Position numbers and translations under genes: made by a program. From the NCBI GenBank assembly GCA_021781495.1, contig JAJXWS010000002.1:48594-112593 (forward strand): a DNA stretch of 64,000 nt, read 5' to 3'. A model generated the notes under the pieces. The model was not told where the DNA came from. It saw only the letters and a list, made by a program, of their open reading frames with translations, and ran no database searches. Source of the DNA: Acidobacteriota bacterium (GTDB taxonomy: Bacteria > Acidobacteriota > Terriglobia > Terriglobales > Acidobacteriaceae). Positions 1 through 51,164 of the stretch are shown here, piece after piece. Within the stretch, counting starts at the first letter, position 1. Each line of letters starts with the position of its first letter.

Positions 1-1018
1 TCGCGCTCTTTCCGCCGGAGGCGTCTCGCATAGCGCCTCAGCTGGACGCGTTGTACTTCTTCATCGTCCTCGTCAGCCTGATCGGTTTGACGATCGTCAT
101 CCTGCTCGTGACCAGCTTCTCGATTCTCTACAGCAAAAAGCGGCATCCCGTCCCCGTGCAGATCGAGGGATCCACCTTGCTGGAAGCAACCTGGACGATT
201 GTTCCGCTGGGCCTCTTCCTCGTGATGTTTGTCTGGGGGGCCTTGATTTACTTCCGTGTCTTCACGCCGCCTGCAAACGCGATGAACATCTACGTCGTGG
301 GCAAGCAATGGATGTGGAAGGCAGAGCATCCCGGAGGCCAGCACGAGATCAATTCGCTGCATGTGCCGGCAGGGCGTGCCATCCAGCTCACGCTTATCTC
401 GCAGGATGTATTTCACAGTTTTTCCATCCCCGCATTTCGCGTGAAGCGTGAAGCAATTCCCGGTCGCTACACCACGGTGTGGTTTGAAGCGACAACGCCG
501 GGCACGTATCACCTGTTCTGCTCGCAATATTGCGGAACGGAGCACTCGCACATGATTGGCGATGTGGTTGTGATGTCGCCGGAAGACTACAAAACGTGGC
601 TGGCGAGTTCGACAAGTGGTGCATCCCTGGCGCAAAACGGAGAGCGGCTGTTTGCAAGCATGAGTTGCAATGCGTGCCATAATGCCAGACCCGATGCGCG
701 TGGTCCTAGCCTGGCAAATGTGTATGGGGCAAAGCTGACGCTGACCAGCGGACAGACCGTCACCGTGGACGAAGCCTATCTGCGGCAGGCGATCCTGAAT
801 CCATCGCAGAACATTACACAGGGCTATGCGCCGATTATGCCGACCTATCAGGGGCAAATTAGCGAAGAAGGCCTGATAGCCCTGATCGAATACATCAAGA
901 ACCTTAACTCCGACTACCGGGTGCAGCAGACGACAACCACAACTACGCTGCTGCCCGGAGGAGCCGGAAAGGCGGCGCCTGCAAAGCAAGAGCCAGCAGG
1001 GCAAGGGATGGTGCAGCA

Positions 1019-1022
<4 letters not shown>
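1..1022 (+). CDS. coxB: Cytochrome c oxidase subunit II with C-terminal cytochrome c domain (caa3-type); 5' end beyond the window
   Basis: Frame stays open to the left edge upstream of the tracked start at 51; CuA motif [13 protein letters not shown]-terminal CNACH heme motif; followed by coxA. Confidence 0.93.
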
Positions 1023-2672
<1,650 letters not shown>

Positions 2673-2683
<11 letters not shown>

Positions 2684-3422
2684 CACAGTGATTGCCCATG
2701 ACGGTTTGGAGGCGGGGCACCACGAGCACTCGCCGCATCTGCATCATCAGTTTGAGTCCGTAGAGCAGCAGGCAGACGCGGGCAACTTTGCGATGTGGTT
2801 GTTTCTGCTGACGGAAGTGATGTTCTTCGGCGGATTGTTTACCGTCTACATGATCTACCGCAACTGGTACTATCCGGCCTTTGTTGCGGCGTCACACCAG
2901 TTGAGCGTCAAACTGGGCGGTATTAATTCCGTCCTGCTGATTACGTCCAGCCTTACGATGACGCTGGGCGTGTGGTCTGCTCAGTTGCGGCGCAAGGGAA
3001 GCCTTATTTTTTTCCTGATGCTCACGTTCCTTCTGGGTGTTGTCTTTCTCGGCATCAAAGGGGTGGAGTACAAGGAGAAGTTCGAAAAGCATCACTTCCC
3101 CGGAGCGAACTACAGCCTGCAATCCTTCGTGAACCCGGCGAGCGATCCCGTTGCGGTTGCAGCTGGTGACAAGCCCCTGCCGCTGGATATAGCGCAGCGG
3201 ACCGAAGTGTATTTTTCGCTGTACTTTGCCATGACTGGAATGCATGCGCTGCACATGATCGTTGGCATGGGGATCCTTCTGTTCATGATCTTCAGAGCAC
3301 GATCGGATGCGTATACAACAGGACACACAGCGTTCGTCGAATATTTTGGCCTGTACTGGCACTTTGTCGACATCATCTGGATTTTCCTGTTTCCGTTGCT
3401 GTACCTGATCAACCGGCACTAA
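2673..3422 (+). CDS. coxC: Cytochrome c oxidase subunit III
   Basis: Multi-TM subunit III sequence ([46 protein letters not shown]); GTG start overlaps coxA end. Confidence 0.94.
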
Positions 3423-16650: not shown

Positions 16651-17613
16651 GTGGAACTGTTTCACGGCGCAAATGTCGATTGGCTGGGGAAGAAGTGGTA
16701 CTTCCTCGGCTTTTCCTTGATTTTCAGCATTGCCGGTGTCGTTTCGATGGGTTGGCACTGGGCCCACATTGGCAGTCCTGTCCCGCTGGGCGTGGACTTT
16801 AAGGGCGGAACGCAGGTCCAGGTGCAGTTTACGCAGTCGCCGGACATCAACAAGATCCGCTCTGCCATGGATGCTGCAGGCATACGGGATGCGCGCATTC
16901 AGGCTTTTGGCCAAGCCACAAATAACGAGGTGCTCCTCAGCCTGCCGGAGCAGACCAACGAGACGACTCTGGACACGGGACGGGAGCGAATCGTCAATGC
17001 GCTGCACGCGCAGTATGACAACCCCTTTACGGTACGAAATGTTCAGGTGGTAGGTCCCACCGTAGGCCAGCAACTGGAGCGGCAGGCCGGCCTTGCCACG
17101 TTGTATTCGCTGCTGGGAATGCTGGTATATCTGTGGTTCCGCTTCCAACTCATCTACGGCGTTGCCGCGGTGGTGGCCGTGTTCCATGACACGCTGATCA
17201 CGATCGGCGCATTTGCACTCACCAATCAGGAGATCAGCCTAACGGTGATTGCTGCGATTCTGACGCTCGTCGGCTACTCGATGAATGACACGATCGTTGT
17301 GTTTGACCGCATCCGCGAGAACCTTCGACTGACGCGGCGCGAGCCTTTGCCGGACCTGGTGAACAGAAGCATCAACCAGACGCTGAGCCGAACTGTCCTC
17401 ACATCCGGCTTGACATTTCTTACCGTGCTCTCGTTGTATATCTTCGGCGGTCAAGTGCTGCGCGGATTTTCCTTTGCGCTCGTCATCGGCATTTTGATTG
17501 GGACCTATTCGTCCATCGCAGTAGCAGCACCGATGCTGGTGGCATGGCAGGAATGGCGGGCAAAGGGGGGCAAGGTAACTGCCCTGCCGGCCGCAAAAAG
17601 GGCAAGAGTTTAG
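16651..17613 (+). CDS. secF: Protein translocase subunit SecF
   Basis: GVDFKGGTQVQVQF; LVGYSMNDTIVVFDRIRENLR; SINQTLSRTVLTS. Confidence 0.96.
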   Translation: MELFHGANVDWLGKKWYFLGFSLIFSIAGVVSMGWHWAHIGSPVPLGVDFKGGTQVQVQFTQSPDINKIRSAMDAAGIRDARIQAFGQATNNEVLLSLPEQTNETTLDTGRERIVNALHAQYDNPFTVRNVQVVGPTVGQQLERQAGLATLYSLLGMLVYLWFRFQLIYGVAAVVAVFHDTLITIGAFALTNQEISLTVIAAILTLVGYSMNDTIVVFDRIRENLRLTRREPLPDLVNRSINQTLSRTVLTSGLTFLTVLSLYIFGGQVLRGFSFALVIGILIGTYSSIAVAAPMLVAWQEWRAKGGKVTALPAAKRARV

Positions 17614-17650
17614 GGATTTTCGGCGTTTTATGGCGTGTTCGCAAAGTCCT

Positions 17651-17680
17651 TTGCAAGTCCGACGGTTGTTCTGATATAGA
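17651..17680 (+). promoter_or_regulatory. Candidate sigma-70 promoter with extended -10 upstream of tonB
   Basis: TTGCAA-N18-TATAGA with TGa extended -10; within an 8-bp inverted repeat GCGTGTTC (17633-17640)/GAACACGC (17683-17690). Confidence 0.4.
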
Positions 17681-17777
17681 AGGAACACGCTTTGTGGTAG
17701 CGTTTTGATGCCCGGGAACATTTCAAGTTCTGGCGGTGTCTAAGTAGAGGTAACCAACACCCGATTCGAGGCTGGCC

Positions 17778-18497
17778 ATGTTTGAAGATTCCACGTTTGA
17801 ATCCGGAAATAGGATCAAGAGCAAGAGCAAGTATTGGATGATGGTCACATTCATCACCAATGGTTCCATCTTGCTGCTTCTGATCCTGATTCCGCTGATC
17901 TATCCCGAGGCGCTGCCGAAGGCTGCCATGCAGACCCTCCTGGTGGCTCCGCCGCCGCCACCGCCGCCACCGCCACCGCCGCCGCCGCCAGAGGTGCACG
18001 TGGTGCATGTGCAGTCGGAGATGATGAACAACCAGCTGACGGCCCCGACACGCATTCCGCACGACATCAAGATGGTCGCTGAGAAGGAAGCGCCGCCGTC
18101 CAGCTTTGGTGTGGCCGGCATGGAAGGCTTGGGTGGTTCAGGTGGTGGTGTTCTCGGCAGCGTTTTTGGCAATGAGAACAGGCCGAAGGTTCAGGCTGCT
18201 GCGCCCAAGAAAGTCGCTATCTCGGCCGGTGTTGCTCAGGGCATGTTGATCCAGAGGACCATGCCGGTCTATCCGCCGATCGCCAAGGCCGCTCGCGTCT
18301 CCGGTACTGTGATTCTGCAGGCCACGATTTCGAAGGCGGGCACGATTACCAATTTGCGTGTCATCAGCGGGCCGGCCATGCTGCAGCAGGCGGCAATGGA
18401 TGCAGTACGGTCCTGGCGTTATCGGCCTTATCTGCTCAATAACGAGCCTGTTGAGGTGGAGACCACCATCAACGTGATCTTCACCCTCGGTGGATGA
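17778..18497 (+). CDS. tonB: Energy transducer TonB family protein
   Basis: N-terminal TM, Pro14 run, C-terminal TonB domain (YPPIAKAARVSGTVILQATISKAGTITNLRVISGP..W RYRPYLLNNEPVEVETTINVIF). Confidence 0.9.
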   Translation: MFEDSTFESGNRIKSKSKYWMMVTFITNGSILLLLILIPLIYPEALPKAAMQTLLVAPPPPPPPPPPPPPPEVHVVHVQSEMMNNQLTAPTRIPHDIKMVAEKEAPPSSFGVAGMEGLGGSGGGVLGSVFGNENRPKVQAAAPKKVAISAGVAQGMLIQRTMPVYPPIAKAARVSGTVILQATISKAGTITNLRVISGPAMLQQAAMDAVRSWRYRPYLLNNEPVEVETTINVIFTLGG

Positions 18498-18633
18498 GGC
18501 TTTCCTGAACCTTCTTTACGCGCATAAGGAAGGGGCATGCTTTTGATCGGAATGCGAATCCGGAAAGAGCCGCATTCTCAGTAACCGCAACACGGTTGTA
18601 TTTCACAAGAAACTCCTTAGGAGGAAAGATTCA

Positions 18634-19374
18634 GTGATTCTCGCTCAGCTTGCACACTTCGCTTCGCACACGGTCAGCAGCCTGGCACTCTTTCAGGAAG
18701 AGCAGACAGTTAGCTTCAGCCCCATGGGGTTGTGGCAGCACATGGGATGGCTGGCTCGCGCCGTTGCCATCATTCTCTTCATCGAATCGATCTGGTCGCT
18801 GGCCGTGATGATCGATCGTTACCTGTACTTCTCTGCAGCCCGCAAGCAGTCGCGTGAGTTCGCTCCCAAGGTTGCCGGCGCACTGAAGGACAGCAAGCTG
18901 GAAGAGGCCATCAAGATTGCCGACCGTAACAAGAAGTCCCACCTCGCCGAGGTTGTGACTGCCGGTCTGCAGGAGTTCCGCGCCTCTGCCGGTACCGCCA
19001 CGGAGAGCACCATAGAGAGTTCGCAGCGCGCCCTGGAGCGTGCCGAGGCTATCGTTCACGCCAAGCTGAAGAGGGGCCTCAGCGTTCTAGCCACCATCGG
19101 CTCGACTGCTCCCTTCGTCGGACTGTTCGGAACGGTCGTCGGCATTCTGAACGCCTTCCAGCAGATCGCCACCCAGAAGACCTCCGGTATCGGCGCCGTC
19201 GCGGGCGGTATCTCTGAGGCCCTGGTTACCACGGCATTCGGCCTGCTCGTAGCCATCCCGGCCGTTATGGCGTTCAATTACTTCACCGGACGTGTCGAAG
19301 CCTTCGACGTGGAGATGGACAACTCCTCCAGCGAGCTTATCGACTACTTCATCAAGCAGAGCAGCAAGCGCTAA
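18634..19374 (+). CDS. exbB: MotA/TolQ/ExbB proton channel family protein
   Basis: LSVLATIGSTAPFVGLFGTVVGILNAFQ; AVAGGISEALVTTAFGLLVAIPAVMAFNYF; AGGAGG RBS. Confidence 0.93.
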   Translation: MILAQLAHFASHTVSSLALFQEEQTVSFSPMGLWQHMGWLARAVAIILFIESIWSLAVMIDRYLYFSAARKQSREFAPKVAGALKDSKLEEAIKIADRNKKSHLAEVVTAGLQEFRASAGTATESTIESSQRALERAEAIVHAKLKRGLSVLATIGSTAPFVGLFGTVVGILNAFQQIATQKTSGIGAVAGGISEALVTTAFGLLVAIPAVMAFNYFTGRVEAFDVEMDNSSSELIDYFIKQSSKR

Positions 19375-19530
19375 AACAGCGTAGCAAACGGCTTGAGCGG
19401 GAAGCTGTGAGGCCAGGAGAGGGCCCAAATCTCTCTCCTGACCTCGGTTTCTAACTCGTGCCAGCTCCACTACACAAGAGCAGAACCGGAAGCCATCCGG
19501 AAGAAAATTCAAAGGCATGGAGCCTAATCA

Positions 19531-19971
19531 ATGGCAATCTCAGTTCGTAACGAAGGAAGCAAGATCAACTCCAACATCAACGTGACACCCATGGTGGACG
19601 TGATGCTGGTGCTTTTGATCATCTTCATGGTCATTACCCCCATGCTCCAGAACAAGGTGGCAGTCGATATGGCCAAGGTGGAAAACGCCGTTGCCATGCC
19701 GGACGCCGACAAGGAAGATGCCATCGTTGTTGCCGTCACGCGGGACGGAGGCGTATTCCTGGGGCAGGACAAGATCGCAACCAGCGAACTTGGCAACCGG
19801 GTTCGCGACAAACTGGCCGATACGCCAGGAAAGACAATCTACGTCCGCGCAGATGCACGCGCGCAGTTCCGCGCGGTTGAAGATGCCATCGATGCAGTTC
19901 GTACGGCCGGCGTGGATGAAGTGGGCTTGTTGACGCAGAAGAAGGAAGGAAACCTCGCGGGCGGCGAGTAA
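19531..19971 (+). CDS. exbD: ExbD/TolR biopolymer transport protein
   Basis: SNINVTPMVDVMLVLLIIFMVITPML. Confidence 0.93.
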   Translation: MAISVRNEGSKINSNINVTPMVDVMLVLLIIFMVITPMLQNKVAVDMAKVENAVAMPDADKEDAIVVAVTRDGGVFLGQDKIATSELGNRVRDKLADTPGKTIYVRADARAQFRAVEDAIDAVRTAGVDEVGLLTQKKEGNLAGGE

Positions 19972-20027
19972 TCCACTTTTTTGCGCTGTCTCTTTAACGA
20001 TTTGCAGGAAACGAGGAGTTTTAAGCC

Positions 20028-20465
20028 ATGGCAATGACAACTGGAGGCGGGGGAGGTTACTCGTCCGACATCAATGTTACGCCCATGATCGACATCTTGC
20101 TGGTGCTGCTGATCATTTTCATGGTCATCGTGCCGGTGACGCCGAAGGGGTTGGAAGCACTGGTTCCGCAGCCGCCAAAGAACCCGCAGCAGCAGCAGCA
20201 GCCGAACGATCGTACGATCGTGGTGCAGGTTATGTACCGCGCGGGCCAGGCGCCCACGTACAAGATCAATGAGACGGATGTTGCCAAGTCTGAATTGCTG
20301 GCGAAGCTGACCGAAATCTATGCAAATCGCGCAGAGCGTGTCATGTTTGTTCGCGGCGACGACGATCTCGACTTCCGCTATGTGGCGGATGTAATCGACA
20401 TCGCGAAATCAGCCAACGTGGATCACATAGGACTGATGACGCCGAAGATTCAGGCTGGCCAGTAA
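20028..20465 (+). CDS. exbD: ExbD/TolR biopolymer transport protein (second copy)
   Basis: SDINVTPMIDILLVLLIIFMVIVPV. Confidence 0.93.
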   Translation: MAMTTGGGGGYSSDINVTPMIDILLVLLIIFMVIVPVTPKGLEALVPQPPKNPQQQQQPNDRTIVVQVMYRAGQAPTYKINETDVAKSELLAKLTEIYANRAERVMFVRGDDDLDFRYVADVIDIAKSANVDHIGLMTPKIQAGQ

Positions 20466-20729
20466 TCGTGCCTCTTTGATGCGGTTCCTGTGCGGGAACC
20501 GCAGCGAATGCCTTGAGGGGGCACGCGGAGTAAACGCAGCGCAGCGAGCTGGATCCTACCTGGAGCGGTTTGCAGCAGACAGGAACCCTTCCACGGCAGG
20601 CAGCTATGCTGGCGCGATAACAAGAGTACAATTCTGCCATCCTGGTTTCGGTATCACCTGCCCGCGGCCAGATGCTTTAGATTCCAGGCGCGCAACCGAT
20701 AGGCACGACCTGAAGGAGAAGAAACGAAC

Positions 20730-21566
20730 ATGAATCGACCCGCAAGAATTATGGCGCTCGCGGTTGCCTTGGCAGGCATGGTGCTTTCCATGAGCGGGTG
20801 TGACCGCCTTGCAGCCCGAGACCAGCTGAATAAGGGCGTGGAAGCCTACAAGGGTGGCAAGTACGAAGAGGCCATCGGGCACTTCCAGAAGGCCACGCAA
20901 CTGGATCCCACCCTTCCGATGGCGAAGACCTATCTGGCTACAGCGCTGTCCCAGAACATTGTTCCCGGGCTGGATACACCGGAAAATATGAAGACCGCGC
21001 AGCAGGCCATCAGCATCTTTCAGGACGTTCTGGCGAAGGACCCGAACGATGTGAACAGCCTGAAGCAGATTGCGGGAATCTATTTCAATATCAAGAAGCT
21101 GGATGACGCCAAGACCTGGCAGAAGAAGGTTCTCGCAGTGGATCCCAAGGATCCAGAGGCGGCATATACGATCGGCGTGATCGATTGGACCCAGGCCCAC
21201 GAAAACGTGCTTAAGGCGCTGGTGCCCGCTGGCATCAATGACGACGGCGCGGGCAATACAAAGGCTCCGAAGAAGATCATGGACGGCATCAAGGAGCAGA
21301 ATGCTCCCCTGGTCGAAGAGGCGCTTCAGTATCTCAATCAGGCGATTGCCAACCGCCCGAACTACGACGATGCCATGGCCTATCTGAACCTGGTCTATCG
21401 CCGCAAGGCCGATATCGACTTTGGAAACGTGGATGCCGTAAAGGAAGATCTGGCGCAGGCAGAGGATTGGCGTACGAAGGCAATGGGTACCCGCAAGGCC
21501 AACGAAGAGAAGAAGGACAAGGGCCCCGGCGGTATCACCATGGATTCAAGCGGCAACCTGAAGTAA
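20730..21566 (+). CDS. Tetratricopeptide-repeat lipoprotein
   Basis: Lipobox LSMSGC; TPR-like repeats (YKGGKYEEAIGHFQKATQLDPTLPMAKTYLATAL). Confidence 0.82.
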   Translation: MNRPARIMALAVALAGMVLSMSGCDRLAARDQLNKGVEAYKGGKYEEAIGHFQKATQLDPTLPMAKTYLATALSQNIVPGLDTPENMKTAQQAISIFQDVLAKDPNDVNSLKQIAGIYFNIKKLDDAKTWQKKVLAVDPKDPEAAYTIGVIDWTQAHENVLKALVPAGINDDGAGNTKAPKKIMDGIKEQNAPLVEEALQYLNQAIANRPNYDDAMAYLNLVYRRKADIDFGNVDAVKEDLAQAEDWRTKAMGTRKANEEKKDKGPGGITMDSSGNLK

Positions 21567-40785: not shown

Positions 40786-41862
40786 ATGGAAGAGGAACAG
40801 GACCAGCGGACGGATCCCCCGGCGGGGAGCCTGATGACACGGCTTGTGCCGTGGGTGGGCGGGGTGTGGGTTCTGCCGCTGCTGGTGGTGGCGCTGTGGC
40901 TGCATGCCACGTCGGAGGTGGACTTTGCGCTGGCGGTGATTGTCGCCACGCTGCTGGCACCTATTCCCATGGTGCTGCTGGCGCGCCGGTTGCAGAGGCA
41001 CTGGGAGGCGCGCGCGGAGAAGGCCGAGGAGAGCGCTGCACAACTGCGGCTGCAACTGGACACGGTGCGCTATCGCACGACGCGGCTGCGCGAGGAGTTG
41101 CAGGCGGCGGACCGGCAGGCGAGGCTGTCGCACCAGTTGACGCTGCTGGGGCAGTTCACGGCGGGATTCATGCATGAGTTCAACAATCCGCTGGCGATTG
41201 TGGCGGGGCGGATTGAGGTGCTGCTGGACGAGCGGAAAGACGATGCGGAGCTGTGCGGCGACTTGCAGCAGATGCTGAAGGAGACGCGGTACATGGGCAG
41301 CATTGCACGCACGCTGCTGCAGGCTCTGCGTCGCGAGCGCGGCGGCGAGGTGTTTGAGGCGTCGATGCCGCAGAAGGCGCTGGAGGAGGCTCTGGAGGCG
41401 TTTCGGCCGGGGGCCCGCGCGCAGGGAGTGAAGCTGCTGGAGGAGTTTGGCGAAGCGCCCAGGGTGGATGTGCCGGAGCACGTGGTGGGCGAGGTGGTGC
41501 GGGGACTTATCAGCAATGCGCTGGAGGCCCTGAAAGACACGGAAGATGCGGCGATCTGGGTGCGGCTGGAGCCCTACCGGACGGCGGGCGCGAAGGTGGT
41601 GGCGCGGGTGGAAGACAACGGGCCGGGAGTGCCGGAGACGATTCGCGAGCATCTGTTTGAGCCGTTTATCACGCAGAGCAGCGGACGGGAGCGGCTGGGG
41701 CTGGGATTGTTTCTGGCGGCGAGCCTGCTGGATATGTACGATGGCCGGATTCGTTATGAAGCGCGGGAGGAAGGCGGCGCCAGCTTTGTGATTGAGCTGC
41801 CGCCGGCGCGGTTTACGCGTGGCCAGCCTTACCATTGGTTTGCCGGAGGAGCGACGGAGTGA
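40786..41862 (+). CDS. Membrane sensor histidine kinase
   Basis: Two TM helices; H-box GFMHEFNNPLAIVAG; VEDNGPGVPETIREHLFEPF; GLGLFLAASLLDMY. Confidence 0.92.
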   Translation: MEEEQDQRTDPPAGSLMTRLVPWVGGVWVLPLLVVALWLHATSEVDFALAVIVATLLAPIPMVLLARRLQRHWEARAEKAEESAAQLRLQLDTVRYRTTRLREELQAADRQARLSHQLTLLGQFTAGFMHEFNNPLAIVAGRIEVLLDERKDDAELCGDLQQMLKETRYMGSIARTLLQALRRERGGEVFEASMPQKALEEALEAFRPGARAQGVKLLEEFGEAPRVDVPEHVVGEVVRGLISNALEALKDTEDAAIWVRLEPYRTAGAKVVARVEDNGPGVPETIREHLFEPFITQSSGRERLGLGLFLAASLLDMYDGRIRYEAREEGGASFVIELPPARFTRGQPYHWFAGGATE

Positions 41863-43259
41863 GCCGCATAGTGGTGATTGACGATGAGCCAGCGCTGGGC
41901 GAGAACATCCAGCGCATGCTGCGCCTTCCGGGGGCCACGGTACAGACGTTTACGGATCCGGCGAAGGGGCTGGCGTGCGCGCTGGCGCATCCTCCGGACC
42001 TGGTGCTGCTGGATGTGCGGATGCCGGGGATGTCGGGCGAGGAGGTATTTGCCCGGCTGCACGAGGAGCATCCGGCGCTGCCGATTGTGTTTTTGACGGC
42101 GTATGGGTCAGTGGAGAGCGCGGTGCTGGCGATGCGCAACGGCGCATTTGACTACCTGCAGAAGCCTTTCAAGCGCGAAGACCTGATGCTGGTGGCGAAG
42201 CGGGCGCTTTCGCACTCTTCGCTGGAGCACGAGGTGGCAAGGCTGAAGGGGCGTCTGGAGTCGCTGGGCGACACGGACGCGGCGCAGAGCCACAGTCCGG
42301 CGATGCTGGAGCAGATGGAGAAATGCCGCCGTGCCGCAGCCACGGATGCCACGGTGATGATCCTGGGCGAGAGCGGAACGGGCAAGGAAGTGATGGCGCG
42401 GTTTTTGCACTCGATGAGCCGCCGCAAGGATGGCCCGTATGTGCCGGTGGAGTGCAGCGCGATGCCGGGGGCGCTGATTGAGAGCGAGCTTTTTGGCTAC
42501 GAGAAGGGCGCCTTTACCGGGGCGGAGCGGATGAAGAAGGGGCTGATCGAGTCGGCCGACGGCGGAACGCTGTTCCTGGACGAGATTGGCGACCTGGGAG
42601 TGGAGTCGCAGACGCGGCTGTTCCGGTTTGTGGAAGAGCGGGCGCTGCGCCGGCTGGGCGGACTGACGCAAGTGAAGGTGGATTGCCGCATCCTGTGCGC
42701 GACCAACCAGGACCTGATGGCCAAGATCAAGGCGGGATCGTTTCGCGAGGAGCTCTTCTACCGGTTGAGCGTGGTGACGGTGAAGCTGCCGCCGCTGCGG
42801 GAGCGGCCGGAGGATATTCCGCATCTGGCGCGGTTCTTTCTGGAGCGGTTTTCGCGGCGATATGGGAAGAGCGTTTCCGGCTCTCCGCAGTTCTATGAGG
42901 CACTGCTGAGACGGCGCTGGCAGGGGAATGTGCGGGAGCTGAAGAACGTGATGGAACGGCTGCTGGCGCTGCATCCGGGCGGCATTCTGCGGCCGGAGGA
43001 TCTGGAAGAGGAGATTCAGCAGCAGGAAGGCATTGGGCACCTGGCCGTTTTGCCGTGGAAGGATGCGCGAGACCGGTACCTGGCGGGCTTTGAGAAGTCC
43101 TATGCGCAGGCGGTGCTGGCGCGTTGCGGGGGGAACGTGAGCGCAGCGGCGCGCGAGGCCGGGGTGGACCGGAAGACCTTCTATCTGTTGCTGAAAAAGG
43201 ACAGGGAACCGCAGGGTGGGGAATTCATTCCTCAACTTGAGCCGGGGATCGGGGAGTAG
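41859..43259 (+). CDS. Sigma-54-dependent response regulator (NtrC family)
   Basis: Receiver LVLLDVRMPGMSGEE; GESGTGKE Walker A; GAFTGAERMKKGLIE; Fis-type HTH; GTG start overlaps kinase stop. Confidence 0.95.
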   Translation: MSRIVVIDDEPALGENIQRMLRLPGATVQTFTDPAKGLACALAHPPDLVLLDVRMPGMSGEEVFARLHEEHPALPIVFLTAYGSVESAVLAMRNGAFDYLQKPFKREDLMLVAKRALSHSSLEHEVARLKGRLESLGDTDAAQSHSPAMLEQMEKCRRAAATDATVMILGESGTGKEVMARFLHSMSRRKDGPYVPVECSAMPGALIESELFGYEKGAFTGAERMKKGLIESADGGTLFLDEIGDLGVESQTRLFRFVEERALRRLGGLTQVKVDCRILCATNQDLMAKIKAGSFREELFYRLSVVTVKLPPLRERPEDIPHLARFFLERFSRRYGKSVSGSPQFYEALLRRRWQGNVRELKNVMERLLALHPGGILRPEDLEEEIQQQEGIGHLAVLPWKDARDRYLAGFEKSYAQAVLARCGGNVSAAAREAGVDRKTFYLLLKKDREPQGGEFIPQLEPGIGE

Positions 43260-43318: not shown

Positions 43319-43334
43319 TGGTCTGTGACTTGCT
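43319..43334 (+). promoter_or_regulatory. Candidate sigma-54 (-24/-12) promoter
   Basis: TGGtctgtgacTTGCT (GG-N10-GC) 26 bp upstream of the ATG at 43361, directly downstream of a sigma-54 activator gene. Confidence 0.55.
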
Positions 43335-43360: not shown

Positions 43361-44692
43361 ATGAAATTCTGGAAATCAGGCTTCAAGACATTCCTTTTTC
43401 TCTCAGTTCTATTTCTATTGATGCCTCAGCCGGGGCATGCGATTCCGGCATTTGCTCGGAAGTTTGGCGTAAAGTGCTACACCTGTCACACCATTCCACC
43501 CGCGTTGAACAAGAACGGCTACATGTTCAAGCGGTTGGGATATCGTATGCCTCCGGACGAGATGGACGGAAGCAAGCCGGCACCGAAGGTGAGCGAGCTG
43601 GACAAGGACATCAAGTTCAGCCTCACGAATTCGTTTGCCGTGATTCTGCAGGGCAGCGTTACCGAGGATAAGACAGTATCGGATTCAGGAACGACGACGT
43701 CGGTTTCTCCGTCGACCTCCTGCGGCAGCGATACGTCCTCCTCGTCCACATGCTCGAGCTTCAACCTGGACGAAGCGGCGATGTTCTTTGCCGGCGCGGT
43801 TCCGGACTCGGGCTTCTCCTACTTTGGGCACTATGAACTGTACCAGGACGGCGGCAGCGGTCTGGAGCAGGGTTTTGGCGTTTACACGGGCGGCCGCGCC
43901 AACAGCAGCTACTTTGTGAAGGGCGGCGAAATTCACATGCAGGAAGGTGAGGGAACGCGCGCAGCGATGTTCTACAACCTTTTCCCTGACCCGTCTTACA
44001 CGCTGACGAATGTTGATCCGATCGGCTTCACGCTGGATCAGCATCCGACGGGTGTGGACTTCGGCTACACGTGGGCGTCTCCGTACTTCGGCAAGATCTT
44101 TGCGGTATCGGCAAAGGTGACCAATGGTCTGGCCGCGGACGGCAGCGAAATTCTGAACGGCTCAACGAAGAACTCGAAGGATGTGTGGGCGGACGCGGAC
44201 TACTGGTTTGGACCGGATGGCGGCGTGACGGTGATGATGTATCGCGGCTCGAAGGATCAGAACCAGACGGATGCCAACGGCAATCCATTCACCTTCAGGC
44301 CGACCTTCTATCGCGTAGGCGCATTCGGCAACTACCTGTTCTTTGACAAGCTGGATCTGTTGGGCGGCTACATCCACAGCAATGATGACTGGCTGTGGAA
44401 CCAGGGCGGAACGATGTCGCACTACACGGCCAACAGCTACCGCGGAGAGGCTGATTACTACATCAAGACCGGAACGGCGCTGATGGCGCGGTTCGATCGC
44501 TCGAACCAGAAGATCGATCCCAATCCGCTGATGCACACGCGGGCATGGGGTGTTGGCGCCGAGCATGCGATGACGGACCTGGGCAATGTGGTGGTTCGTG
44601 CGACGTACAATCAGGAGCACGATGGCGACCCCGTTGCGCTGGTAGGCAGCACCGACAAGAAGTTCATGCTGGACTTCCGGTTCATGTGGTAA
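43361..44692 (+). CDS. Predicted outer-membrane porin-cytochrome fusion with single N-terminal heme (Cyc2-like layout)
   Basis: Signal peptide, AIPAFARKFGVKCYTCHTIPPALNKNGYMFKRLGY, then aromatic-rich alternating strands ending ...KKFMLDFRFMW (terminal aromatic as in OMPs). Confidence 0.7.
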   Translation: MKFWKSGFKTFLFLSVLFLLMPQPGHAIPAFARKFGVKCYTCHTIPPALNKNGYMFKRLGYRMPPDEMDGSKPAPKVSELDKDIKFSLTNSFAVILQGSVTEDKTVSDSGTTTSVSPSTSCGSDTSSSSTCSSFNLDEAAMFFAGAVPDSGFSYFGHYELYQDGGSGLEQGFGVYTGGRANSSYFVKGGEIHMQEGEGTRAAMFYNLFPDPSYTLTNVDPIGFTLDQHPTGVDFGYTWASPYFGKIFAVSAKVTNGLAADGSEILNGSTKNSKDVWADADYWFGPDGGVTVMMYRGSKDQNQTDANGNPFTFRPTFYRVGAFGNYLFFDKLDLLGGYIHSNDDWLWNQGGTMSHYTANSYRGEADYYIKTGTALMARFDRSNQKIDPNPLMHTRAWGVGAEHAMTDLGNVVVRATYNQEHDGDPVALVGSTDKKFMLDFRFMW

Positions 44693-44704: not shown

Positions 44705-45112
44705 ATGCACAAAGCAATTCAATGGATGGCAATTGCCTGTATGAGCGCGCCGCTGTTTGTGGTTGCGCAGAGCAGCAACGTAACGCTTCCGCAGGATAAG
44801 GGGCCGAGCTCTATCAATGTCTCTTCGTATCCGCCGGAGCAGCAGAAGGCCTACAAGGTGTTTGTGGACAAGTGCGCGAAGTGCCACACGATTGCTCGCC
44901 CGATCAACACGTCGATGAGCAAGCCGGAGTGGGAGCGCTATGTGAAGCGCATGATGCACAAGCCGAACTCGGGCATCAGCGACAAGCAGGCGAAGGACAT
45001 CTTCGAGTTCCTGGCGTATGACCAGCAGGTTCGCAAGGACAAGAATCCCTCCGCCTTCTACAAGTCGCTTTCCGATGCAGAGATCGAGAAGCTGAAGGCG
45101 CAACAGCACTAA
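44705..45112 (+). CDS. Periplasmic monoheme cytochrome c
   Basis: Signal peptide; KCAKCHTIARPIN; MSKPEWERYVKRMMHKPNSGISDKQAKDIFEFL. Confidence 0.85.
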   Translation: MHKAIQWMAIACMSAPLFVVAQSSNVTLPQDKGPSSINVSSYPPEQQKAYKVFVDKCAKCHTIARPINTSMSKPEWERYVKRMMHKPNSGISDKQAKDIFEFLAYDQQVRKDKNPSAFYKSLSDAEIEKLKAQQH

Positions 45113-45276: not shown

Positions 45277-47121
45277 ATGAGCTATTCCATCAAGATCCCG
45301 GACAGGGAGTACTTTGACAAAAATATTCCCTGCCAGTCGGCCTGCCCGATTCATACCGAGTGCGGACGCTATGTGCAGGCGATTGGGATCTCGCAGGACG
45401 AAGAAGCCTATCTGCTGGCACGCGCGCCAAATCCGTTTGCGTATGTGCTGGGAAGGATCTGCGCGCATCCATGCGAGGATAACTGCCGCCGCGGGAAGAT
45501 TGACGAGCCGATTGCCATTTGTGCGCTGAAGCGCTACGCGACAGACAGGCACAACCTGGGCATGGGGCATGATCCGGCAAGGAAGGCCCTGCCGAAGGTC
45601 GCAAAGCGAGACAAGAAGATTGCAGTAGTGGGAGCGGGTGTGTGCGGACTGACGTGCGCGCACGACCTGGCGCTGCTGGGTTACACGGTGGAGGTGTTCG
45701 AGTCCGCGCCGGTGCCGGGAGGCATGCTGTACCTGGGGATTCCGCATTTTCGCCTTCCGCGGGAAATCATCAAGATGGAGGTCGACCACATCCTGAGCAT
45801 GGGTGTGACGCTGCATACGCGGGTGACGGTGGGGCGCGACATCTCCTTTGCCGAACTGCGTTCGAAGTTTGATGCAGTGCTGCTGTCGACCGGTTTGAAC
45901 AAGGGGCGCGAACTGAATATTCCGGGCGCGCACCTGGCGGGCGTTTATAACGGCATCGATTTTCTGATCAACGTGAATCTCGGCTTTGAGATTGAGCTGG
46001 GGAAGCGCGTTGTGGTGGTGGGCGGCGGCAATGTGGCGATTGATGTGGCGCGCGCTGCCGTTCGACTGGTGCAGGAAGCCGAGGATGTTGCAAGGCCCGC
46101 CACGAATGGGGATGAAAAGAACATTCAGCCTGCGCTGGATGCGGCTCGTCTGGCTCTGCGCTCCGGCGCCGAGCAGGTGAACATGGTCAGCCTGGAGTCG
46201 CGCGCACAGATGCCTGCATGGAAGGGCGAGGTGGACGAGGCCGAGCATGAAGGCATTGTGGTGGACAACGGCTGGGGCCCGAAGGAGATTGTGGGCGAGA
46301 ACGGCGTGGTGACCGGACTGCGTGTTCGCCGCTGCCTGACGGTGTTTGACGAGAACGGGCGCTTTAATCCCGCGTTCAGCGATGAGGAGAAGGTAATTCC
46401 GTGCGACAGCGTTGTCCTGGCAATCGGACAGCAGGCGGATCTCTCGTATCTGAACACGGATGACGGCGTGCAGGTAACGCCGCGCGGCATTCTGAAGATC
46501 AATGAGGATTTGAGTACGACGTCTGCGGGCGTGTTTGCGGGCGGCGATGTGGCGTTCGGGCCGCGCATCCTGGTGGAGGCGGTGGCGAATGGTCACAAGG
46601 CAGCGCGATCCATTCACCTCTACCTGAACGGCAAGACGGAAAAGACGCAGCGCAGCCGGTTCCGCATCATGCCGAACTGGAAGATGCCGAGCGGGTTCCT
46701 GACCACGCCGCGGCAGAAGATGCCCATGCTGGCGAACAATCGCCGCATCGGCATTGCCGAGGTGGAGCTGGGCTTTGATGAAGAGCAGGGCCGGGCAGAG
46801 GGAAGCCGCTGCCTGAAGTGCCAGGTGAACACCATTTTTGACGGGTCCAAGTGCATTCTGTGCGCGGGCTGCGTGGACATTTGCCCCGAGCGGTGCCTGC
46901 GGCTTGTGGACCTGGTGCAGGTTAAGGGCGATGAGCGCTATGACGCGCTGATCCGGCAGCGCTACGGAGTGTCCGCTGCCGAGCTGCCGGCAGGACAGGC
47001 AGGCGCGATTATCAAGAACGAAGAAAAGTGCATCCGGTGCGGGCTGTGCGCGGACCGGTGTCCAACCCAGGCCATCACGATGGAGGCACTGGAACGGCAG
47101 GAACGGGAAGTCTTTGAATAG
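45277..47121 (+). CDS. GltD-like NAD(P)-binding flavoprotein with N-terminal Fe-S motifs and C-terminal 2x[4Fe-4S] ferredoxin domain
   Basis: CQSACPIHTECGRYVQAI; VVGAGVCGLTCAHDLALLGYTVEVFES; VVVGGGNVAIDVARAA; CILCAGCVDICPERC and CIRCGLCADRCPTQA. Confidence 0.9.
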   Translation: MSYSIKIPDREYFDKNIPCQSACPIHTECGRYVQAIGISQDEEAYLLARAPNPFAYVLGRICAHPCEDNCRRGKIDEPIAICALKRYATDRHNLGMGHDPARKALPKVAKRDKKIAVVGAGVCGLTCAHDLALLGYTVEVFESAPVPGGMLYLGIPHFRLPREIIKMEVDHILSMGVTLHTRVTVGRDISFAELRSKFDAVLLSTGLNKGRELNIPGAHLAGVYNGIDFLINVNLGFEIELGKRVVVVGGGNVAIDVARAAVRLVQEAEDVARPATNGDEKNIQPALDAARLALRSGAEQVNMVSLESRAQMPAWKGEVDEAEHEGIVVDNGWGPKEIVGENGVVTGLRVRRCLTVFDENGRFNPAFSDEEKVIPCDSVVLAIGQQADLSYLNTDDGVQVTPRGILKINEDLSTTSAGVFAGGDVAFGPRILVEAVANGHKAARSIHLYLNGKTEKTQRSRFRIMPNWKMPSGFLTTPRQKMPMLANNRRIGIAEVELGFDEEQGRAEGSRCLKCQVNTIFDGSKCILCAGCVDICPERCLRLVDLVQVKGDERYDALIRQRYGVSAAELPAGQAGAIIKNEEKCIRCGLCADRCPTQAITMEALERQEREVFE

Positions 47122-47132
47122 GGGAGCAGGGA

Positions 47133-47588
47133 ATGAATCGTCGAGCTTTTCTAAGTTGGGGCACGGCAGGAATGGTATCGCTCAGTTCCGCAGTTGCAGT
47201 GAGCATGGGCGCTGTGGCCCGGTTCCTGATGCCAAGTGTGTTTTATGAGCCGCCGCAAACGTTCAAGATAGGCAAACCGGGCGACTACGCATTCGGCGTG
47301 CCGACGTTTCTGGTGGACGAGAAGATATTTGTGTTTCATGACCGCGACAGGGGCTTTTCTGTTGCGAGCGCAGTTTGCACGCACCTGGGATGCACAGTTG
47401 CGCACTTCCAGAGCGATCAGAAGTTCCACTGCCCGTGCCACGGCAGCGTGTTTGCCGCGGACGGATCAGTGGTGCATGGTCCCGCGCCCAAGCCGCTGAA
47501 CTGGTTTGAGGTGATCCTGGCCCGTGACGGGCAGCTGCAGGTGGACAAAGACAAGATTGTGCCGGCGACTTACCGGTTGATGGTGTAG
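47133..47588 (+). CDS. Rieske [2Fe-2S] protein
   Basis: [10 protein letters not shown] Tat-like start; [11 protein letters not shown] and CPCHGSVF cluster ligands. Confidence 0.94.
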
Positions 47589-47590
47589 CG

Positions 47591-48876
<1,286 letters not shown>

Positions 48877-48877
<1 letters not shown>

Positions 48878-50268
48878 TGGGACGCAGATTACCACAGGCT
48901 TTTTTTGCACTGAGTTTGCTTGCACTGGCGTTGATTGTGGCTGCCGTATGGCAGGCCTCAACACCGTCGTGGAAGACGTATCAGCGCCAGTTCCTGCAGC
49001 TTGAAGCACAAGGCGAGCCGAATGCGGCCGCCAAGGCTGCGGTACTGGCGACGCCCCTGGAGATTCACCAGGTGCTGTTGCCGGGCCTGCAGCGGGTGGA
49101 CCGCTGCACGACCTGCCACCTTGGAGTGGATGATCCGACGATGAAGAATGCGCCGGAGCCGTTCCGCTATCACGTTGGACTGGGAACGAACGTGCCTTCG
49201 AAGTTCGGGTGCACGATCTGCCACGGTGGGCAGGGACTGGCTACGGACCAGAAGAATGCACACGGGAATGTCGACTTCTGGCAGACCCCGCTGCTTGCCA
49301 AGGACTATATTCGGGCCTCGTGCGGACGCTGCCACAAGGAAGGCGATATTCCGGGCGTTCCGGAGCTGGCGGAAGGACGGCACCTGTTTGAGACGCAGGG
49401 CTGCCGCGGATGCCACAAGCTGGATGGCGTGGGCGGAAGCATTGGCCCGGACCTCTCAGAAGAGGGAGCGAGCCAGCGGTCGCCGGAGTGGCTGGAGAAG
49501 CACTTCCTTACGCCGTCGGTGGTTTCGCCGGGCTCGGCGATGCCGAACTTTCACTTTACGCGGGAACAGGCGCGCGCTCTGACGTACTACATGCTCTCTC
49601 TGACGAACCAGGATATGGGCACGTATTACTCCAGCCTGCGCACGATTCCGAGCTCGAGCTACGGGCGTGAACTGTTCGTGGAGAAGAACTGCATTGTCTG
49701 CCATGCAATTGGCGGCGTGGGCGCGAAGGTCGGGCCGGATCTGATGGGCGTGACACAGCGTCACTCGCGCGAGTGGCTGGATGAGCAGCTGGTGAATCCG
49801 CAGCTGGTGTATCCGGGCAGCGCCATGCCGGAGTACGACCTGGATACGAACTCGCGCAAGGCATTGGTGGCATACCTGGCAACGGCTACATCCGAGGATG
49901 CGCAATTGATCCTGTCTGGCAAGAAGAGTACGCTGACGCCGGAGGATGCTGCGATTGAAGCGGGCAAGAGCAACTTTGCACGCTTTGGTTGCGCGGGTTG
50001 CCACGGAACCGAGTTGCAGGGCGGCGTGCCGAATCCGAATGCGCAGGGCGGACAGGTTCCCTCGCTGCTGCATCTGTCGGATGACTACACGAAGGACGAG
50101 GTGATTGAAGTGATCCGGAACGGGCGCATGCCTCCGCTGGACAACGCTTCAGGCCCGACTCCGCCGCTGTATATGCCGTCGTGGAAGCATCTGCTGAGCG
50201 AAGAGGACATTCACGAGATTGTGGAGTTCCTCTGGTCGAAGCAGCAGAAGGCGAAGGATTCCTGGTAG
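48877..50268 (+). CDS. Membrane-anchored hexaheme cytochrome c
   Basis: N-terminal TM; six CxxCH motifs (CTTCH, CTICH, CGRCH, CRGCH, CIVCH, CAGCH); TAATG overlap with cytochrome b stop (tracked ORF opens at 48847). Confidence 0.93.
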
Positions 50269-50299
50269 AGCGGAATTCATCGACTGCGAAGGCATGAAA

Positions 50300-50340
50300 G
50301 GATTCCTCCGTTTGATTGCAGGCGGAGGAATCCTTGTTTG
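50300..50340 (+). terminator. Stem-loop after hexaheme cytochrome gene
   Basis: GGATTCCTCCG-n12-CGGAGGAATCC (11-bp perfect) followed by ttgtttg. Confidence 0.7.
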
Positions 50341-50392
50341 TAGTTGGCAACAGAGATTGCAGGCAACGAAGTTGAACAGGGATTGCGGAAAA

Positions 50393-50905
50393 GTGAAGCG
50401 AAGAATCAGGCATCGATGGGTGGCAGCCGTGGCGCTGGTGACGGTGGCGGCTTTCGGCGTCTCGCGGGCGGCACAGGGGCCCGCCACCGCGGATGTGAAG
50501 GTTGCGCAGCCGGGGAAGATCTATCCGGCGCCGACGAACTTGAAGGTGCTGCCGAAGAACTCGACGGGGCAGCAGGTGCACGACACGATGAAGGAGTGGT
50601 CTGACTCCATGAGCGTGGAGTGCTCCGCCTGCCACGCGGAGGTTCCGGGGAAGAAGGGGCCGGATGGGAAGCCGCTGCTGAACTTTGCGGACGACTCAAA
50701 GCCGATGAAGGATGTGGCGCGGATGATGTACACCATGACCGATGAGATCAACAGCAGCTACATTGCCAAGGTGGAGGGATCGGGGTTGCCGGTGACCTGC
50801 GGGACTTGCCACCAGGGCAAGATAAGCCCCGAGCCTTACGAGAAGAAGAAACCGCAGCCGAAGAATCTGGGACCTGCGCCGGGCGAAGGCCCGATACCGG
50901 AGTAG
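50393..50905 (+). CDS. Diheme cytochrome with photosynthetic-reaction-centre cytochrome c-like fold
   Basis: Signal peptide; CSACH and CGTCH; KPMKDVARMMYTMTDEIN preceding the second motif, as in the RC cytochrome family; probable GTG start, tracked ORF opens at 50219. Confidence 0.78.
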   Translation: MKRRIRHRWVAAVALVTVAAFGVSRAAQGPATADVKVAQPGKIYPAPTNLKVLPKNSTGQQVHDTMKEWSDSMSVECSACHAEVPGKKGPDGKPLLNFADDSKPMKDVARMMYTMTDEINSSYIAKVEGSGLPVTCGTCHQGKISPEPYEKKKPQPKNLGPAPGEGPIPE

Positions 50906-51079: not shown

Positions 51080-51164
51080 GCGAAAGTGGCGGAATTGGCA
51101 GACGCACCAGACTTAGGATCTGGCGGGGAAACCCATGAGGGTTCGAGTCCCTCCTTTCGCACCA
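51080..51164 (+). tRNA. tRNA-Leu (anticodon TAG), CCA encoded
   Basis: Acceptor GCGAAAG/CTTTCGC; anticodon arm CCAGA-CTTAGGA-TCTGG; variable arm; GGTTCGAGTCC T-loop; ACCA end. Confidence 0.96.

Follow-up and report, generated by a model that had tools for sequence, protein, structure and literature searches.

A fused one-heme porin of Acidobacteriota encoded in a conserved NAD(P)-linked Rieske/cytochrome b operon: a candidate outer-membrane redox port

Genes for fused one-heme porins serve as markers of iron oxidation by microbes, and the role of these porins outside the known iron oxidisers is unsettled. What, then, might such a porin do in an acidobacterial genome that an initial annotation, made from the DNA letters alone, took to be that of a putative heterotroph, and with which partners would it work? 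In the current study, we examine this gene within its window (i.e., the whole analysed stretch of 64,000 nucleotides, to which all coordinates without a locus prefix refer). The source genome is a draft of 197 contigs (95.75% complete, 4.68% contamination), and the locus recurs in many independent assemblies.

Heme module, barrel and family of the porin

The translated reading frame of the porin gives 443 residues and one stop, and the N-terminus, the FMLDFRFMW end and the Ser/Thr/Cys-rich stretch quoted in the initial annotation were all found in it as written. Judged by eye, the protein opens with a hydrophobic signal peptide whose last residues are GHA and which is directly followed by IPAFARKFGVKCYTCHTIPPALNKNGYMFKRLGY, with a single CxxCH heme site immediately after the signal peptide. 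The heme module reads AIPAFARKF-GVK-CYTCH-TIP-PAL, and its residues A27, P29, A32, R33, C39, C42, H43, P47, L49, N50, G53, F56 and G60 are invariant in 50 aligned sequences. Proteins of the Cyc2/Cyt572 type are recognised by AXPXFAR[Q/K][T/Y] before CxxCH, PXL four residues after it, a length of at least 365 aa, and a 16-strand barrel (PMC8406198). The porin agrees with these features in length and in its 16 predicted strands, and matches the motif except in its final residue, which is F (ARKF) in place of T/Y, the published Y (ARKY) being present in most orthologs. By the published sequence criteria, with this last motif residue excepted, it is a Cyc2/Cyt572-type fused cytochrome-porin. Searches of Pfam and NCBIfam returned no match for the porin, nor did a sequence search of the PDB. 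Seventeen genomes (same genus) have orthologs of 72–82% identity, a further ortholog, of 68%, was found in another family, and a scan of GTDB genomes yielded 56 porin loci, all of them Acidobacteriota by title, named Acidobacteriota MAGs included, and many of them from bog, fen and palsa MAGs. Because orthologs recur in the same genus, in another family and in named MAGs, the reading frame can be regarded as a real gene.

An AlphaFold2 model built with 50 sequences contains 16 beta strands (counted from DSSP elements; mean pLDDT 77.5, pTM 0.77), the heme module at residues 27–63 falling below a pLDDT of 50, so that its position is of low confidence. Foldseek matches in the PDB were mostly 16-strand porins (BpsOmp38, PorB, OmpT, OmpF, DcaP, and OprO/OprP), and OprO/OprP are the structures that were used as templates to model Cyc2 (PMC8406198). 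The fused one-heme cytochrome-porin claimed in the initial annotation is thus borne out by a CxxCH module after the signal peptide and a predicted barrel; the 16 strands that it had looked for in a structure prediction appear in the model, with 16-strand porins as the best fold matches, and the lack of a closed barrel, which it had named as a counter-sign, is not what the strand count gives. The protein is predicted to be a 16-strand outer-membrane barrel with one c-type heme at its periplasmic N-terminus. The Ser/Thr/Cys-rich insert had been described as an exposed loop, which its place in the model, between strands 1 and 2, and its varying length (14 to 41 residues in the 50 sequences) support; it carries either no cysteine or two, never one, and is probably exposed with its Cys pair disulphide-bonded. 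Highly conserved charges on the lumen side are mostly acidic (D274, D278, D280, E363, D365, D423, and D438 versus K298 and R413), the lumen faces having been assigned from strand alternation and hydrophobicity rather than from coordinates, with several strands ambiguous. This excess of acidic charges suggests a lumen suited to a cation.

The place of the porin among its relatives was assessed with a midpoint-rooted tree of 54 heme porins, for which the program warned of long branches. In this tree, 13 ARQT-motif porins (homologs from acidobacterial genomes and named plasmids, standing in for characterised Cyc2) are united in a single clade (100/100) that excludes the window family; the latter groups with close relatives of its own and with porins of 486 aa (L027) and 418 aa (L140). 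Barrel-only profile comparison gave a probability of 97.8% (E 1e-12) to the FGEAF-type (bc-linked) porins and no match, at 0.9%, to the ARQT-type porins; as reversed-profile controls reached 0.1–0.2%, the former value is above background and the latter not clearly so. On these sequence relationships, the porin is a member of a distinct Acidobacteriota family that lies outside the ARQT clade. The divergent relative of Cyc2 that had been suggested is recovered in this form, with a Cyc2-type heme module yet a position outside the clade that has the full published Cyc2 motif, and, instead of grouping with a characterised non-redox porin family, which the initial annotation had said would count against its reading, the porin is put by profile comparison with other heme-bearing porins. 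The dominance of ordinary 16-strand porins among the Foldseek matches would suit an ordinary nutrient porin with a non-functional heme-binding motif, but this explanation is very improbable given that CxxCH and its surrounding residues are invariant in 50 sequences, that the profile groups the porin with heme-bearing porins, and that the operon is one of redox proteins.

Gene neighbourhood and its conservation

The genes around the porin are collected in Table 1. Their order is retained in most loci with enough flank, across Acidobacteriaceae and Bryobacterales, and the mono-heme cytochrome c gene is conserved immediately 3′ of the porin in orthologous loci. The GltD-like flavoprotein matches NCBIfam PRK12771 and related models below cut-off, and the cytochrome b matches ExtP at residues 29–230 and ExtQ at residues 295–419, both also below cut-off. 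A tRNA-Leu gene lies just 3′ of the locus (51080–51164).

Table 1. Features of the porin locus in the window.
Feature	Coordinates	Strand	Details
Sensor histidine kinase, first gene of conserved locus	40786..41862	+	Pfam HisKA, HATPase_c; kept upstream in orthologous loci
NtrC-type response regulator, sigma-54 activator domain	41835..43259	+	Pfam Response_reg, Sigma54_activat, HTH_8; conserved
Sigma-54-type -24/-12 promoter-like site TGGTCTGTGACTTGC	43319..43333	+	[TC]GG-N9-TGC upstream of porin
Single-heme porin (fused cytochrome-porin)	43361..44692	+	Signal peptide ~1-27, heme module 27-63, barrel 92-442
Variable Ser/Thr/Cys-rich loop, residues 103-134	43667..43762	+	Between strands 1 and 2; Cys pair
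Periplasmic mono-heme cytochrome c	44705..45112	+	CxxCH; Pfam Cytochrom_C / CBB3 weak, below cut-off
GltD-like FAD/NAD(P) oxidoreductase with 4Fe-4S domains	45277..47121	+	Pfam Pyr_redox_2, Fer4_20, Fer4
Rieske iron-sulphur protein	47133..47588	+	Pfam Rieske; NCBIfam cytochrome b6f Rieske models
Cytochrome b, b6 and subunit IV parts fused	47591..48877	+	Pfam Cytochrome_B, Cytochrom_B_C
Membrane-anchored hexaheme cytochrome c	48874..50268	+	6 CxxCH (by eye); Pfam Cytochrom_C, CBB3, FixO; conserved
Di-heme cytochrome c, CytoC_RC-like	50291..50905	+	Pfam CytoC_RC; patchy among loci, not core

The link between the porin and the complex is close. An ortholog of the cytochrome b was found in 20 of 150 relatives, and in all 20 a window-type porin lies 4.1–4.8 kb away on the same strand; five of the remaining 130 genomes have a window-type porin without the cytochrome b ortholog (Fisher p = 1.5e-20, with genomes treated as independent though related). 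Two further cytochrome b genes in the porin’s own genome (C62 and C140) score lower and show no porin match, and since they stand in other settings, the Rieske/cytochrome b complex of this locus is an extra one. Upstream of the porin, [TC]GG-N9-TGC occurs 24–60 nt before the start codon in 35 of 36 loci, as against 1.7% of shuffled upstream regions, and most often at a distance of exactly 42 nt. The sigma-54 consensus, searched with three mismatches over the whole window, was no commoner than chance, and the informative signal is the position-specific conservation upstream of the porin only; together with the adjoining sigma-54 activator, the site points to regulated expression. As for function, the initial annotation had proposed a possible conduit for extracellular iron or another small redox partner. 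The conduit role is supported, whereas the account was incomplete in that the conserved NAD(P)-linked Rieske/cytochrome b operon under a sigma-54 activator had been missed, and this conserved operon is the main clue to the function of the porin. A search of the open-licence literature found no description of this gene cluster.

Heme porins of other types show a related pattern. Among the more distant types, a heme-porin match lies at most 9 kb from a b6-type cytochrome b in 23 of the 30 listed genes, in blocks that comprise a flavoprotein, a Rieske protein, a b6-type cytochrome b, subunit IV, an octaheme cytochrome c and often a cupredoxin-domain protein; the bc-linked blocks include both FGEAF-type and ARQT-type porins (L097–L102, L108, and L109). 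Some related cytochrome b matches (L106:6698-8005, L107:6990-8288, and others) contain or overrun one in-frame TGA, probably where the match runs through the gene’s own stop. Stand-alone paralogs of the window family have a di-heme cytochrome c directly 3′ in 11 of 12 loci, and a c-type cytochrome mostly adjoins the heme porin in named Pseudomonadota homologs. The basic unit looks like a heme porin with a soluble cytochrome c, joined to different respiratory complexes. At L103:4239-11935, the first gene of an operon encodes a heme porin of another type, and a di-heme cytochrome c and COX2/COX1-type oxidase subunits follow, a layout reminiscent of the rus operon. The same heme porin and cytochrome c, with matching surroundings, are present on plasmids of Acidiphilium cryptum and Acidithiobacillus ferrooxidans (L113:4971-6338 and L116:4971-6338), which suggests that the pair has spread on plasmids.

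One stand-alone paralog, of approximately 40% identity, sits amid genes that by eye resemble metal-resistance genes, namely those for a P-type ATPase with YHS-like motifs, a Met/His-rich CopB-like protein, and a multicopper-oxidase-like protein (L061:3979-6573, 16841-21111). A lipoprotein-like gene, VNMGDSPSDWMLAFSMNI, perhaps of DUF4382, recurs near stand-alone paralogs (L060, L061, L062, L069, and L074; e.g., L062:7331-8827). The metal-resistance-like neighbours would agree with a porin heme that is sensing or detoxifying (e.g., surface copper or oxyanion redox) rather than respiratory, and that shares the operon for co-regulation. We consider this quite improbable, as the linkage of porin, cytochrome c and bc complex is tight in 20 of 20 genomes and recurs with more distant porin types, and the stand-alone paralogs also retain a cytochrome c directly 3′.

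A candidate route for electrons and its direction

We place about even confidence in a reading of the porin as an outer-membrane redox port, most likely for a dissolved donor such as Fe(II), that is coupled via c-type cytochromes to an anammox-like complex. The parts, their order, their conservation, their co-occurrence and the promoter-like site are read from the sequence, and to these we add heme loading, partner contacts, substrate and direction by inference. A small dissolved redox partner, most likely a donor such as the Fe(II) of acid, iron-rich soil water, would enter the barrel from outside. The porin heme would take its electron and pass it on to the product of the neighbouring gene, the mono-heme cytochrome c, which would link via the hexaheme cytochrome c to the quinone-linked Rieske/cytochrome b complex with its cytoplasmic NAD(P)-type flavoprotein. 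From the complex, the incoming electrons could either be driven uphill, towards quinone or NAD(P)H, or flow off to a terminal oxidase, and the adjacent two-component system would switch the operon on from the sigma-54 promoter.

A port for a dissolved donor is supported by the Cyc2-type module with its published spacing, the conserved locus, the co-occurrence with cytochrome b and the bog, fen and palsa origins of the loci, by the 16-strand barrel with OprO/OprP among its fold matches, by the pairing of porin and cytochrome c in stand-alone paralogs and Pseudomonadota homologs, and by the b6-type cytochrome b or COX1/COX2 genes near heme porins of other types. Three points make uptake the favoured direction: Fe(II) is oxidised by those members of the heme-porin superfamily that have been tested, a single heme at the mouth on the periplasmic side requires a partner in solution, and the charges in the lumen are of a kind that suits a cation. 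Against uptake, the cluster contains no terminal oxidase, and the barrel has no profile match to ARQT porin barrels (0.9% probability). At the start of the window (51–3419) are reading frames that by eye resemble aa3-type cytochrome oxidase subunits II, I and III.

Electrons might also travel in the opposite direction, with the complex oxidising quinol, passing one electron to NAD(P)+ via the flavoprotein and sending the other out via the c-type cytochromes and the porin heme to acceptors such as dissolved Fe(III) complexes, humics or oxyanions. The NAD(P)-linked Rieske/cytochrome b complexes of anammox bacteria have been proposed to oxidise quinol and reduce NAD(P)+, making NAD(P)H by electron bifurcation, while the other electron leaves via a multiheme cytochrome c (PMC12954380). 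The complex described here has their make-up, and such a scheme would fit electron export as well. Among NCBIfam models, moreover, the cytochrome b matches best ExtP and ExtQ of the Geobacter ext cluster, in which the porin ExtI serves selenite and tellurite reduction (PMC5877670). Against export, ExtI itself lacks a heme motif, the window porin has a heme module of the Cyc2 type, in which the members tested so far oxidise Fe(II), and the locus has no recognised multiheme cytochrome of the outer membrane. We judge export to be somewhat unlikely.

If uptake is taken as the direction, the one transcription unit might even encode all that leads electrons straight from an outside dissolved donor to NAD(P)H, namely the heme porin, two cytochromes c and the NAD(P)-coupled complex. 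We regard this further step as doubtful and clearly unlikely; were it true, otherwise heterotrophic Acidobacteriota of soil and mine drainage would draw reducing power from Fe(II) or some comparable donor. The putative heterotrophy of the host, as initially annotated, fits what was found as regards RuBisCO: the only RuBisCO-large match of the genome (L147:1051-2352) has a LacI-type regulator and a DUF1537-like kinase as neighbours (by eye), and is probably a catabolic RuBisCO-like protein not engaged in CO2 fixation. Autotrophy on the strength of this match was rejected in view of the catabolic-looking setting.

In Acidobacteriota that come from peat as well as from other sites, gene order ties the porin to one particular quinone/NAD(P) complex and to a sigma-54 switch of its own. 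Should this coupling prove real, the bacteria trade electrons with compounds dissolved in their surroundings. Acidobacteriota have at least three types of heme porin whose partners differ, so heme-porin matches need gene context before they are read as signs of iron oxidation.

Comparison with Cyc2, Ext and anammox systems

Cyc2 of Mariprofundus oxidises Fe(II) (PMC8406198), and the window porin resembles Cyc2/Cyt572 in its single CxxCH after the signal peptide, its AxPxFARK motif and PxL spacing, its predicted 16-strand barrel, and its adjoining cytochrome c gene. It differs in having ARKF/ARKY rather than ARQT and a barrel profile nearer to the bc-linked acidobacterial porins, and its operon encodes an NAD(P)-linked Rieske/cytochrome b complex, with no oxidase subunit recognised in it. 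Heme porins in Acidobacteriota are not new as such, since acidobacterial homologs of Leptospirillum Cyt572 were noted earlier (PMC10654088).

Geobacter reaches its full selenite and tellurite reduction only with the porin ExtI of its ext cluster (extHIJKLMNOPQS), a protein that has no heme motif (PMC5877670). The present locus is similar in that a porin, a Rieske protein, an ExtP/ExtQ-like cytochrome b and a cytochrome c with a partial ExtS match are clustered. In contrast to ExtI, however, the window porin has a heme motif; the rhodanese (ExtH) is absent among the scanned neighbours, and the Ext models score under their curated cut-offs (ExtP, 275.9 versus 290; ExtQ, 65.1 versus 150; ExtS, 67.4 versus 100). 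Judged by these scores, by the heme-free porin and by the rhodanese, the locus would fall outside the Geobacter Ext clusters.

The likeness to the anammox complexes (Kuste4569-4574 and Kustd1480-1485) is one of gene make-up as described in PMC12954380: a Rieske protein, a cytochrome b of the b6/subunit IV type, a multiheme cytochrome c and an NAD(P) oxidoreductase are encoded together. Here, in distinction to those complexes, the b6 and subunit IV parts are fused, the multiheme protein is a hexaheme cytochrome, and a heme porin and a two-component system are added.
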